Source: Arhodomonas aquaeolei DSM 8974 (lineage in GTDB: Bacteria > Pseudomonadota > Gammaproteobacteria > Nitrococcales > Nitrococcaceae). From it: a stretch of DNA of 64,000 bases. The translations under genes were made by a program, and so were the position numbers. Below the pieces are notes generated by a model that worked only from the letters and a program-made list of their open reading frames with translations, made no database searches and was not told the origin of the DNA. Shown piece by piece: positions 34,416 to 38,565 of the stretch. The stretch lies in the NCBI RefSeq assembly GCF_000374645.1, contig NZ_KB894801.1:186001-250000 (forward strand). The letters run 5' to 3'. Within the stretch, counting starts at the first letter, position 1. Every line of letters starts with the position of its first letter.

Positions 34416-35641
34416 TCCGCCTCGCGCAACCCGATCACCAGGTCCATGACGTTCGTGCCCGTCGGCCCGGTCTCGATGAGATCACCGCTGCAGGAGAGAA
34501 AGCCGCCCGCGTCCGCCCGCCTCAGCGCCGTCTCGGCATCGGCCCCGTAAGCCGCACCCCGCCTGAGCGTGCCCCCGTCGACCAGGGCGCCGGCCGCCTC
34601 CGACGCGCCGTCCGCGCCGTCCGTGCCGCCGGCTAGCAGGCCTGTCCCGGCACTGCCGGCCAGCTCACAGGCCGCCGCTAGCGCGAGCGCCTGCATACGC
34701 CCGCCCCGGCCGGGATTCTCAGGCAATACCACGGTGGGCTCACCACCGCGCAGATGGACGCCGGGCGGCGCATCGCGCAGGCCCGCACCGATACGGTGAC
34801 CGAGCGCGACCGCATCCCCTTCGAGGGGGTCGTCGGCATGATCGTGCACCGCGTAGCCGAGCCGGCGCGCCTCGGCGGCCGCCGCCTCCACCGCGTGGCG
34901 ATTGGTCGCGACCAGATGGGTGTCGAGCCCGCCGAGTCCGGGGTCATCCGGCGTCGGCGACGGGTCAGCCACCGGCATGAGCTCGTCGTAGCCCTCGGGC
35001 AGCGCGCCGGCGTCGGACGCCGGCGCCGCGACGAAAGGACCGGAGCCGATCACCGCCGGGTCGTCCCCGGGGACATCGGAGATGATCAGCTGGCAGGCCG
35101 TTCGCCCGGCGAGTCGGACACCGAGCCGCCCCCCTTTTACCGTGGAGAAGCGCCGGCGGATCCGGTTCATGTCGCCGATGGCGAGCCCGCCCGCCAGCAT
35201 GCGGCGGTTGAGGGCCGCAAGCTCCGCCTCGCCGGCGCCGCCGGGCAGGCGCTCCATCAGTGCCGAGGCACCGCCCGAGATCAGCACGAGGAAGCGGGCG
35301 TCCGCCGGCGCCTCCTCCAGCAGCGTCACCGCGGCGTCACCGGCGGCGAGGCTACGCGCATCCGGCACGGGATGGGCGGAACTGATCATGCGCAGCCCCG
35401 GCACACCGTCCAGCGCCGGATCTTCATAGCCTTCCCGGGTGATGACCAGCCCGCCGAGCAGGCGCTCACCGAGAACGTCCCTTGCACCCAGGGTCATGGC
35501 GGCGGCGGCCTTGCCGACCGCGATGAGGTGCCACTGGCCGGACAGCGGGTGGGCCCGCAGCCATTCGCGCACGGCGGGCCGGCCGGCGACGGCCCTGATA
35601 CCGGCACGGTACATCGCCTCCAGGTCCCCGCATGCACTCAT
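34412..35641 (-). CDS. ttuD: Glycerate 2-kinase / TtuD (MOFRL family)
   Basis: The 409-aa MOFRL-family protein is long called hydroxypyruvate reductase TtuD but is now mostly considered a glycerate 2-kinase making 2-phosphoglycerate. Features: N-terminal VGKAAAAMTLGA, the VLISGGASALME nucleotide loop near residue 122, LIISDVPGDDPAVIGSGP, and the C-terminal GTDGADG...EAAGALVD motif. It overlaps metZ upstream by 4 bp (35638-35641) and DUF455 downstream by 4 bp. The connection between a sulfhydrylase and glycerate metabolism is not obvious; serine-glycine metabolism is a possible link. Confidence 0.87.
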   Translation of the reverse strand: MSACGDLEAMYRAGIRAVAGRPAVREWLRAHPLSGQWHLIAVGKAAAAMTLGARDVLGERLLGGLVITREGYEDPALDGVPGLRMISSAHPVPDARSLAAGDAAVTLLEEAPADARFLVLISGGASALMERLPGGAGEAELAALNRRMLAGGLAIGDMNRIRRRFSTVKGGRLGVRLAGRTACQLIISDVPGDDPAVIGSGPFVAAPASDAGALPEGYDELMPVADPSPTPDDPGLGGLDTHLVATNRHAVEAAAAEARRLGYAVHDHADDPLEGDAVALGHRIGAGLRDAPPGVHLRGGEPTVVLPENPGRGGRMQALALAAACELAGSAGTGLLAGGTDGADGASEAAGALVDGGTLRRGAAYGADAETALRRADAGGFLSCSGDLIETGPTGTNVMDLVIGLREAE

Positions 35642-36837
35642 GTCCGCCCCCCGGCGGAGAGCCCGCGATCCAGGTCCGCCCTGATGTCGTCAACGTCCTC
35701 CAGGCCCACCGACATCCGCAGCAGGCCGTCGCCGATGCCCGCGACGTCCCGCTGGGCCTGGGTATTTCGGCCATGGGTGGTGGTCGCCGGGTGGGTGATG
35801 GTCGAGCGGGTATCGCCCAGGTTGGCGGTAATGGAAAGCAGCCGCGTGGCATCGACCACTCGCCACGCCGCCTCGCGTCCACCGACCACGTCGAACGAGA
35901 CAATTCCGCCGAAACCCCGCTGTTGACGGGCGGCAAGCGCATGCTGGGAATGCCCGGGAAGCCCCGGATAGTACACGTGTGCCACCGCCGGGTGCGCGTC
36001 CAGCCACTCTGCAACCGCCTGGGCGGCCTCGCAGTGCGCGCGCATGCGGACCGCCAGTGTTTCCAGGCCCTTCAGGAAGACCCAGGCGTTGAACGGGCTC
36101 ATCGACGGCCCGGCAGTGCGCAGGAACCCGTGCACCTTGCGGCCGACCCGTTCGGAATCGCCGACGACCGCGCCGCCCACACAGCGGCCCTGGCCATCGA
36201 GATACTTGGTCGCCGAGTGCACGACGATGTCCGCCCCCAGGTCGAGCGGTCGCTGGAGCGCCGGTGTACAGAAGCAGTTGTCCACCACCAGAACGGCGTG
36301 ATTGGCGTGGGCGATCTCCGCCACGGCGGGGATGTCGGCAAGCTCCGTGAGCGGGTTGGAGGGCGTCTCCAGGAAGAACATCCGCGTGTTGGACTGGACC
36401 GCGGCGGCCCAGGCCTCAGTATCCGCGAGGGGGACGAAGGTGGTCTCGATGCCGAACCGCGCCAGGTGGTTGGTAAGCAGCGAGACGGTGGAGCCGAACA
36501 GGCTGTCCGAGGCGACGATGTGATCCCCGCTGTCCAGCAGCGACATGACCGTGGACAGGATGGCCGCCATGCCGGAGGCCGTGCCACGCGCGCACTCGCC
36601 GCCCTCCATCGCCGCGAGGCGGCGCTCGAAGGTTCGGACGGTGGGGTTGGTGAAGCGCGAATAGATATTGCCGGGCTCACGCTCGGCGAACTTCTCGGCG
36701 GCCTCCGCCGCGCTGGAGAACACGAAACTCGAGGTCGGGAAAATCGCCTCGGCGTGCTCCTGCTCGGGAGTCCGGTCGTGACCGGCGCGAACGCCCAGGG
36801 TGGCAAGCCCCCAGGCGTCGGTGTCGCTGTCGCTCAT
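35638..36837 (-). CDS. metZ: O-succinylhomoserine sulfhydrylase MetZ
   Basis: MetZ combines O-succinylhomoserine and sulfide to homocysteine in direct-sulfhydrylation methionine synthesis. From ATG 36837 the product is 399 aa. It is a Cys/Met metabolism PLP enzyme with the cofactor lysine at K211 in SATKYLDGQGR, the phosphate site around SGMAAILS, and the FLETPSNPL and VDNCFCTPALQ segments typical of MetZ. Its position after purF is the one seen in Pseudomonas. The leader upstream carries a SAM-II class riboswitch, and a possible promoter overlaps the purF stop. The downstream genes ttuD and DUF455 overlap it. Confidence 0.93.
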   Translation of the reverse strand: MSDSDTDAWGLATLGVRAGHDRTPEQEHAEAIFPTSSFVFSSAAEAAEKFAEREPGNIYSRFTNPTVRTFERRLAAMEGGECARGTASGMAAILSTVMSLLDSGDHIVASDSLFGSTVSLLTNHLARFGIETTFVPLADTEAWAAAVQSNTRMFFLETPSNPLTELADIPAVAEIAHANHAVLVVDNCFCTPALQRPLDLGADIVVHSATKYLDGQGRCVGGAVVGDSERVGRKVHGFLRTAGPSMSPFNAWVFLKGLETLAVRMRAHCEAAQAVAEWLDAHPAVAHVYYPGLPGHSQHALAARQQRGFGGIVSFDVVGGREAAWRVVDATRLLSITANLGDTRSTITHPATTTHGRNTQAQRDVAGIGDGLLRMSVGLEDVDDIRADLDRGLSAGGRT

Positions 36838-36898
36838 AGCGCCCTCTTCAACTGGATTTCGACGGGGCGGGCGGAGGGAGACGAGCGAACCAGGCCGC

Positions 36899-36995
36899 TG
36901 CTCCACGCTTTAGCCGTATTTGCTGACCGGTCTCCGAAGAAGGCCGGCACGCGGCGCCCGCAAGCTGGGGATCAAATCGGCGCCCCAATCCGCGG
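36899..36995 (-). promoter_or_regulatory. SAM-II class (S-adenosylmethionine) riboswitch before metZ
   Basis: Minus-strand leader RNA shows the SAM-II pattern. P1 is formed by GGCGCC (36979-36984) and GGCGCC (36953-36958). The P1 loop begins with GATTTGA (36972-36978) and ends CTTGC (36960-36964). A downstream GCTAAA (36909-36914) is the conserved element that folds back as a pseudoknot: loop CCCCAGC can pair with GCT and GTGG of GCTAAAGCGTGG. A CCGG-stem insert lies between P1 and GCTAAA, as in the long-loop variant of the class. The element lies about 70 nt before metZ. Binding would shut metZ down when SAM is abundant. Confidence 0.75.
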
Positions 36996-37025
36996 CCACA
37001 GTGGCGGCAGATTGACGTGACGTTA

Positions 37026-37048
37026 TGTCCCGGCCCCGGGCATGTCAA
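37026..37048 (-). promoter_or_regulatory. Possible metZ promoter
   Basis: On the minus strand a perfect TTGACA (37043-37048) overlaps the purF stop codon. CATAAC or TAACGT lies 15-17 nt downstream. It would start transcription just ahead of the riboswitch. The -10 match is weak, so this is tentative. Confidence 0.35.
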
Positions 37049-38565
37049 TCCGCGTTGCCGAGGACCCGGTCCAGGTTGGCGGCCGCGCCCTGGCCCTCGG
37101 TGGCCGCCTTGGCCTCGTCCGAGCGCGCGTTCTCGAGGTCCTGGAGATAGCCCTCGGTGACGTCACCCGTGACGTAGCGGCCGTCGAAGCAGGAGCAGTC
37201 GAAGCCCGTAAGCGCGGGATTGCCCTCGCGCACGGCGGTCGCGAGGTCTTCCAGATCCTGGTAGATCACCCCGTCCGCCCCGATCACCCGCGCGATCTCG
37301 TCCTCGTCGCGGTTATGGGCAAGGAGCTCGTGGGCGGCCGGCATATCGATGCCATAGACGTTCGGGTAGCGCACCGGCGGCGCCGCGGAGGCAAAATAGA
37401 CCTTGTTCGCGCCGACCTCGCGGGTCATCTGGATGATCTGCTGGCTGGTCGTGCCGCGCACCACCGAGTCGTCCACGAGCAGGACGTTCTTGCCGTGAAA
37501 CTCCAGTTCGATGGGGTTCAGCTTCTGGCGCACGGACTTCTGGCGCACCGCCTGGCCCGGCATGATGAACGTCCGGCCGATGTAACGGTTCTTGATGAAG
37601 CCCTCGCGGTAGGTCAGGCCGAGCTCATTGGCCATATCCAGCGCTGCCGTGCGGCTGGTGTCCGGCACCGGGATGACCACGTCGATGTCATGATCGGGCC
37701 ACTCGCGCATGATCTTGTGGGCAAGCATCCGCCCCATGCGCAGACGCGACTTGTACACCGAGACGTCGTCGATGATCGAATCCGGGCGCGCCAGGTAGAC
37801 GTACTCGAAGATGCACGGGTTGAGCTGCGGGTTCTCCGCGCACTGCCGACTGTGGAGCTGCCCTTCGAGGTCGATGAACACCGCCTCGCCGGGGGCGACG
37901 TCACGTACCCGCTCGAAGCCCAGCACGCTCAGGGCGACGCTCTCGGAGGCGATCATGTACTCCGTGCCCGCCTCCGTCTCCCGGCGACCGAAGCACAACG
38001 GCCGGATGCCGTAGGGATCGCGGAACCCGAGCACGCCGTAGCCATTGATCATCGCCACTGCGGCGAAGCCGCCGCGGCAACGGCGCTGGATGCCCGCGAC
38101 GGCGTCGAAGATCTCGTCCGGCCCGATGCGCAGCTTGCGCATCTCGCCGAGCTCGTGGGCGAAGACGTTGAGCAGGATCTCCGAGTCGGAGTTGGTGTTG
38201 ATGTGGCGCAGATCCTGGAGATAGAGATCGCGCTTGATCTCCTCGGCGTTGGTGAGGTTGCCGTTATGGGCAAGGCTGATCCCGTAGGGGGAATTCACGT
38301 AGAACGGCTGCGCCTCCGCCGAGCTCGAACACCCCGCGGTGGGATAGCGCACGTGCCCGATGCCCACGTTGCCCTGGAGCTGGAGCATGTGCCGGGTCCG
38401 GAAGACGTCGCGCACCAGGCCATTGCTCTTGCGCAGGAACAGACGTCCCTGGTCATAGGTCATGATGCCCGCGGCGTCCTGGCCCCGGTGCTGGAGCACG
38501 GTCAGGCCGTCGTAGAGCGCCTGGTTGACCGGGCCGCAGCCGACCATGCCGATCACACCGCACAT
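37045..38565 (-). CDS. purF: Amidophosphoribosyltransferase PurF
   Basis: PurF makes 5-phosphoribosylamine from PRPP and glutamine, the first step of purine synthesis. The 506-aa protein starts MCGVIGMVG, so after Met removal Cys is the N-terminal nucleophile of the glutaminase domain (~1-235). The phosphoribosyltransferase domain carries the PRPP motif [14 protein letters not shown] near residue 358. Its length equals the gammaproteobacterial enzyme. A GGAGG site precedes ATG 38565, and the cvpA stop is 16 bp upstream. Confidence 0.96.

Follow-up and report, generated by a model that had tools for sequence, protein, structure and literature searches.

The metZ gene of Arhodomonas aquaeolei DSM 8974 is located at 35638-36837 on the minus strand of the window, i.e. 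the whole stretch of 64,000 nt that was analysed. It encodes an O-succinylhomoserine sulfhydrylase, which was identified with NF006003 (686.9 bits, cut-off 522) and TIGR01325 (574.6 bits, cut-off 510.05). Its upstream neighbour on the same strand is purF at 37045-38565 (TIGR01134, 527.3 bits, cut-off 350). The nearest MetZ and PurF proteins, with 68.7% and 74.7% identity, were found in assemblies labelled Gammaproteobacteria among the named matches listed from the pattern scan described below. The gammaproteobacterial setting that an earlier note had proposed from the sequence is supported, and such a host is no surprise, since SAM-II riboswitches had already been published from Beta- and Gammaproteobacteria (PMC2258182 and PMC2704228, in their accessible parts). 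A search for the regulator MetJ gave no match in the genome of A. aquaeolei. The same genome contains one match to the SAH riboswitch (G000:C1:226038-226125, 59.8 bits, cut-off 37).

A likely sigma-70 promoter is found at the end of purF. Its -35 element TTGACA (37043-37048, minus strand) overlaps the purF stop codon (37045-37047) and is followed after a 17-nt spacer by the -10-like TAACGT (37020-37025), which was assigned by resemblance to the consensus. TTGAC occurs 41-99 nt upstream of the conserved motif in 12 out of 12 anchored leaders from the window and its relatives. Fifteen leaders had been given, and three of them (L166-L168) were not anchored by the script although TTGACA is present in these as well. 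The metZ leader is thus probably transcribed from a promoter of its own. The gene starts with the ATG at 36837, and the likely Shine-Dalgarno stretch GAAGAGGG precedes it at 36842-36849.

Between the promoter and the start codon, the leader carries a complete SAM-II-type aptamer at 36984-36906 on the minus strand, 68 nt before the ATG. A SAM-II riboswitch controlling metZ had been placed at 36899-36995 by the earlier note, which proved right about both the position and the gene. Stem P1 consists of 6 bp in the window and is formed by the two GGCGCC strands at 36979-36984 (5' strand) and 36953-36958 (3' strand). The loop between them (36959-36978) starts with GATTTGA (36978-36972), which contains U10-U12 of the ligand pocket, continues with TCCC and ends with CAGCTTGCG (36967-36959). 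This last stretch is the 5' strand of P2 and holds U20, U21, G22 and C23.

Downstream of P1, the minus strand reads in the order hairpin insert, AAATAC, GGCTAAAGCG, 68 nt and ATG. The inserted hairpin (GCCGG...CCGGT, about 36926-36948) is a predicted fold that was obtained without a shuffled control and belongs to an insert of 27 nt in L3. The L3 segment comprises 38 nt in the window; among 125 pattern loci from the matches listed, 95 have an L3 segment of 11 nt. It reaches at least 28 nt in 15 of these 125 loci, each with a hairpin predicted likewise without shuffled control. Behind the insert, the A-rich part of L3 that adjoins GCUAAA is kept with its AAAT (36918-36921), the stretch expected in the minor groove of P1. 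The 3' strand of P2, GCTAAAGCG at 36906-36914, provides G42, C43, U44, A45, A46 and A47 of the pocket and ends with GCG. According to the accessible part of PMC3764141, the SAM-II pocket is wholly conserved with U10-12, U20, U21, G22, C23, G42, C43, U44 and A45-47, and its crystal register pairs C23 with G42, U21 with A45 and U20 with A46. All 13 of the 13 invariant ligand-site nucleotides in this survey list (GAUUU, UUGC, GCUAAA) are present in the window.

Covariance models, covariation and spread

At the gathering cut-offs, Rfam reported no family in the window. When the Rfam models, suggested as a check by the earlier note, were run with permissive filters, SAM_alpha (RF00521) gave 13.9 bits at the locus against a cut-off of 36 and aligned with the P1 part only; the long-loop model RF01726 gave nothing. 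RF00521 had no match in the own genome at E <= 0.001 either. In four relatives without the insert (L003, L004, L005 and L007), SAM_alpha aligned over its full length with 22.8-28.3 bits, still below the cut-off. The aptamer of the window is missed by Rfam because it is divergent, split by the L3 insert and faced with a strict cut-off. This cut-off is a database threshold and not part of the structural definition of SAM-II.

Three models were used in addition, and their E-values are rough according to the tool's own note. Model R1 was made from 22 canonical aptamers among the Rfam SAM_alpha matches. At E <= 0.01, it recovered 68 of 88 sources and missed the window; without filters it scored 11.2 bits on the P1 part of the window only. 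Model R2 comprises 36 sequences of the new group, several of them from Alphaproteobacteria, and includes the window, whose match to R2 is thus by construction. Out of 30 Rfam SAM_alpha loci, R2 recovered 29 at the correct position, with E <= 0.002 in 25 cases; L033 was missed, and two off-site matches had E 0.61. Model R3 was built from 32 sequences, two of them canonical SAM_alpha, and excludes the window as well as the loci retrieved for the window's family and order, though some of its gammaproteobacterial assemblies may still belong to the window's order. R3 scored the window with 49.2 bits, corresponding to E = 9.8e-11 in the 64 kb and E = 6.1e-9 in the 3.96-Mb genome. The next-best match in the genome had E = 5.94; the copy in the window is single and the only good match. 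In the R3 alignment, the insert was handled as an insertion, with AAAU and GCUAAAGCG aligned behind it. All 21 offered loci of the window and its relatives were recovered with one off-site match at E 0.39. A plasmid BLAST with the leader gave no match.

P1 is strongly supported by covariation. In an alignment of 113 sequences, four of the five modelled pairs change on both sides and 99.8% of the cells are paired. Two-sided changes amounted to 31 compared to 1.7 in shuffles, and none of 500 shuffles reached 31; the alignment was fitted to P1, which favours this outcome, and the shuffle tests for P1 as well as P2 ignore kinship, so that related sequences can exceed such shuffles. The inner four P2 pairs are present and invariant. 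Support for the outer P2 is moderate: covariation is seen, with many exceptions, at the outer pairs belonging to the crystal register (69 cells versus 30.6 in shuffles, score 0.311 versus 0.149, each reached by 0 of 500 shuffles). The best of them is found as UA (47), UG (17), CG (12), AU (10), GC (5) and GU (2), and is unpaired in 20 sequences. At pairs 20-127 and 21-126, 33 of 73 and 60 of 112 sequences, respectively, show no pairing. In the window itself, pair 22-125 is broken with a C opposite U, and the next two pairs are C-G. The register of the pseudoknot in the earlier note (AGC with GCT, CC with GG) differs from the crystal register, with whose outer pairs the covariation goes. As the inner P2 pairs never vary, the comparison cannot choose between the two registers.

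All eight leaders of the first retrieval, one of them from the window, carry the same core before metZ. When the leader DNA was used as query, eight of 59 genomes matched, and R2 at E <= 0.05 matched 22 of these 59 relatives, the own genome being counted in both. The class Gammaproteobacteria in the wide sense of GTDB takes in the Burkholderiales. Within 273 genomes of this class, R2 matched 135 at E <= 0.01, SAM_alpha matched 105 at the same E-value and only 24 over its cut-off; 111 of the 119 listed SAM_alpha places coincide with listed R2 places. SAM-II is thus far commoner in the class than the Rfam cut-off suggests. A pattern scan of named genomes found at least 117 stretches in Beta-, Gamma- and Alphaproteobacteria, and among the matches listed also three in assemblies labelled Acidimicrobiia and one labelled Pirellulaceae. 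Since much of the motif is preset by the pattern and the insert length is capped, conservation inside it proves nothing for the 125 loci taken from the matches listed.

Group members stand in leader position before methionine and SAM genes, as does the window's copy before metZ. Among the 125 pattern loci from the matches listed, MetZ is encoded within 700 nt downstream in 49 and MetX in 24, with neither of them in 52, and 38 have the order purF - motif - metZ. Elsewhere, single loci lie before metK, metF, a betaine-homocysteine methyltransferase gene, a homoserine dehydrogenase gene and cysH, and further ones precede genes for a sulfonate-binding protein or a MetN-like ATPase (below its cut-off).

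Seven out of 17 group loci given to Rfam passed the SAM_alpha cut-off, namely L069 (Zeimonas, 52.0 bits), L059, L077, L093, L042, L149 and L058. Conversely, R2 scored highest at the canonical loci L027 and L031, whose sequences are intermediate. The new group and SAM-II form one continuum. Given the overlap of the group model with SAM_alpha, the pocket, the covariation and the link to metZ, the aptamer is therefore a SAM-II aptamer. The class assignment of the earlier note is borne out by the complete pocket, the R3 match in the genome and the covariation of P1.

Several further observations were made during the searches. A second SAM-II-like subtype with GATTTAA or GAGTTAA, CAACTTGC and GCTAAAGCG was found at ten loci: L075 (3275-3337), L128 (4173-4235), L114 (2530-2592), L099 (595-657), L095 (241-303), L126 (7727-7788), L149 (6870-6933), L170 (1501-1563), L180 (1163-1226) and L062 (1200-1261). 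It lies 48-122 nt behind a first aptamer in seven of them and alone in the others. Downstream, metK (L114), a MoxR-like AAA ATPase gene (L180) and genes for proteins without Pfam match (L099, L149, L062) are located; most genes of this subtype are not obviously methionine genes, and the GAGTT forms (L062, L099, L095, L126) alter U10 of the pocket. SAM-II doublets as such are already published (PMC9481103, accessible part). Weak second R2 matches in the relatives L181 and L182 lack GCTAAA and were not used. Genome G535 (5.1 Mb, same class) has ten R2 matches, two of them about 100 nt apart, which by their sequences would make up a large SAM-II regulon. The aptamers in the assemblies labelled Acidimicrobiia (Actinobacteria; L059, L068, L111) include one with 44.3 bits, over the SAM_alpha cut-off, before a betaine-homocysteine S-methyltransferase gene (L059); transfer or contamination could account for these copies.

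Expression platform and proposed regulation

The expression platform of metZ (36838-36905, minus strand) is rich in YC. No intrinsic terminator was called in the window's leader and its longest T-run is 2 nt. This differs from many relatives, where an intrinsic terminator was called within 130 nt downstream of the aptamer in at least 115 of 160 leaders. The corresponding number was 5.05 in shuffles (maximum 11), and among 152 stretches that begin 500 nt farther downstream, only one had a terminator. The survey covered 161 of 170 regex matches after nine exact repeats had been removed, and in 160 of the 161 the downstream DNA was long enough; some second copies are included, near relatives were kept, and the regex match in L008 ended too early, at a GCTAAA within the insert. 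Forty-six of the 161 distinct matches were without terminator call, one of which was too short for the test. As the strict score threshold misses terminators that are visible by eye (e.g. L081 and L089), 115 is a minimum, and the leaders without call form a mixed group.

In 40 of the 115 terminators, the 5' arm with the loop contains at least 6 nt complementary to the 3' strand of P2, compared to 5.1% of shuffles. Complements to the 5' strand of P2 were found in three of 115 terminators, about as often as in shuffles (2.4%). The pairing of the P2 3' strand with terminators in the relatives is the classic OFF-switch arrangement by antitermination. Such an arrangement with terminators has been described for SAM-II (PMC1273637, PMC2258182) and predicted for metZ of S. 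meliloti (PMC9373788), in the accessible parts of these sources. Transcriptional control, at which the earlier note had hinted because of the distance between aptamer and start codon, has good support in many relatives. For the copy in the window, this reading found no backing, as there is no terminator and the complements are no better than shuffled: the one to the Shine-Dalgarno stretch comprises 5 nt and was reached by 1316 of 2000 shuffles, and the one to the P2 strand comprises 4 nt and was reached by 1962 of 2000. The leader was also folded freely, under a constraint that keeps the aptamer, and with another three bases blocked in addition. The mean unpaired probability of the Shine-Dalgarno stretch was 0.289, 0.292 and 0.289, respectively; it is equally paired in all three folds and no translation switch is thus predicted.

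Since no terminator was found in the window, translation control or Rho-dependent termination remain. The platform contains 17 YC per 70 nt, which is in the top 3% of minus-strand windows and would be in keeping with Rho, if only weakly so. Leaders without terminator call are generally richer in YC than those with one (12.3 versus 8.7 per 70 nt), a difference confounded by G+C content and missed terminators. Tentatively, the lineage may have lost the usual intrinsic terminator, and SAM-II might act via Rho, with the C-rich stretch behind P2 serving for the loading of Rho once the P2 strand is held by SAM; this is conceivable and rather doubtful.

Two small genomes of the window's family offer a different picture. 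In L178 and L179 (1501-1568 in both), P1 is GGGGG/CCCCC, and the GCTAAA strand is directly followed by GGAGG at a distance of 4 nt from a small ORF, which in L178 has no Pfam match. This looks like translation control of a gene other than metZ, judged from the arrangement of the letters.

The lack of a terminator and of any alternative pairing above chance would also fit a decayed former riboswitch, in which the aptamer remains and the regulation was lost with the expression platform. It is unlikely, given that P1 and all pocket nucleotides are intact and that AAAT was kept after an insert of 27 nt. Other leaders (the 46 of 161 mentioned above) keep the aptamer without terminator call as well, though L081 and L089 show one by eye.

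Very probably, a SAM-II class aptamer is present in the metZ leader, likely behind a promoter of its own at the purF end, and its SAM-bound state would lower metZ expression. In this OFF switch, plentiful S-adenosylmethionine would bind between L1 and the P2 pseudoknot and hold GCUAAAGCG in P2, and metZ expression would drop as long as P2 is held. In many relatives, an intrinsic terminator comes next, in some of them with the 3' strand of P2 as a possible antiterminator. A likely controller of metZ can thus be named in a genome where MetJ gave no match.

Known RNA families compared

SAM-II long loops (RF01726) is a variant of SAM-II, by its name with longer loops, and the sequences from which it was described are of Bacteroidetes and marine origin (PMC2864571, accessible part). 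The earlier note had likened the window's copy to it because of the inserted CCGG stem. This assignment was dropped, as RF01726 matched nothing at E <= 10 in 36800-37060 and its best match in the genome lies on another contig with 18.1 bits (cut-off 44).

A closer likeness is the metXZ element of Betaproteobacteria. According to the accessible part of PMC4239095, it lies in metX or metZ leaders and has six conserved regions, with a pseudoknot of regions 1-4 and 2-6, and a terminator hairpin with poly-U. In Nitrosospira and Methylophilales it was reported to precede metZ, as the aptamer does here in L044 and L089. The terminator is absent in the window and was called in at least 115 of 160 group leaders. 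The group appears to be this orphan element of 2014; the two agree in text description, genes and taxa, and have a predicted pseudoknot and, in most group leaders, a terminator in common. A published link between the metXZ element and SAM-II was not found in the literature covered, of which supplements and most subscription papers were no part.

The element might be a separate RNA class that merely resembles SAM-II and senses another methionine metabolite. The description by Leyn et al. in 2014 makes no link with SAM-II and reports SAM_alpha from Rhizobiales and Rhodobacterales only (PMC4239095, accessible part); furthermore, P1 reads GCGCC instead of CGTGG and the outer P2 is different. However, the pocket nucleotides are identical to those of SAM-II, and the intermediate loci L027 and L031, the seven out of 17 loci above the SAM_alpha cut-off and the 111 of 119 shared places connect both groups. 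A separate class is quite improbable, and the SAM-II reading offers a ligand for the orphan metXZ element.

The other orphan entry is Bp2_287 (RF02424), an annotated Burkholderia sRNA, whose model matches the strand opposite the aptamer. It reached 196.9 bits at L129 (6466-6639, plus strand), opposite a SAM-II leader of metZ, and matched more weakly in several other loci. The source of RF02424 had already proposed a cis-acting methionine element (PMC3521395, accessible part). An antisense small RNA of this type on the plus strand, with the minus-strand resemblance as a by-product, is hardly credible in the window: the 16.7 bits of RF02424 at 36866-36979 exceed the 13.9 bits of SAM_alpha but are far below the cut-off of 70, the strong match in Burkholderia is antisense to a purF - aptamer - metZ leader, and promoter, terminators, pocket motif and gene order all fit the metZ strand. 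RF02424 is probably a wrong-strand family, i.e. the reverse strand of a SAM-II leader, and is suggested to be the riboswitch read from the other side.

With SAM-II (RF00521) itself, the element of the window shares P1 and a predicted pseudoknot, the GAUUU/UUGC/GCUAAA pocket and the position upstream of methionine genes. It differs in its P1 sequence GGCGCC, the changed outer P2, the 27-nt hairpin insert in L3 and a score below the Rfam cut-off, and it is without the terminator that often follows SAM-II (PMC1273637, PMC2258182, accessible parts). Both the class and its presence in Gammaproteobacteria were already known; the aptamer before metZ is an ordinary SAM-II, useful for the understanding of two orphan entries.
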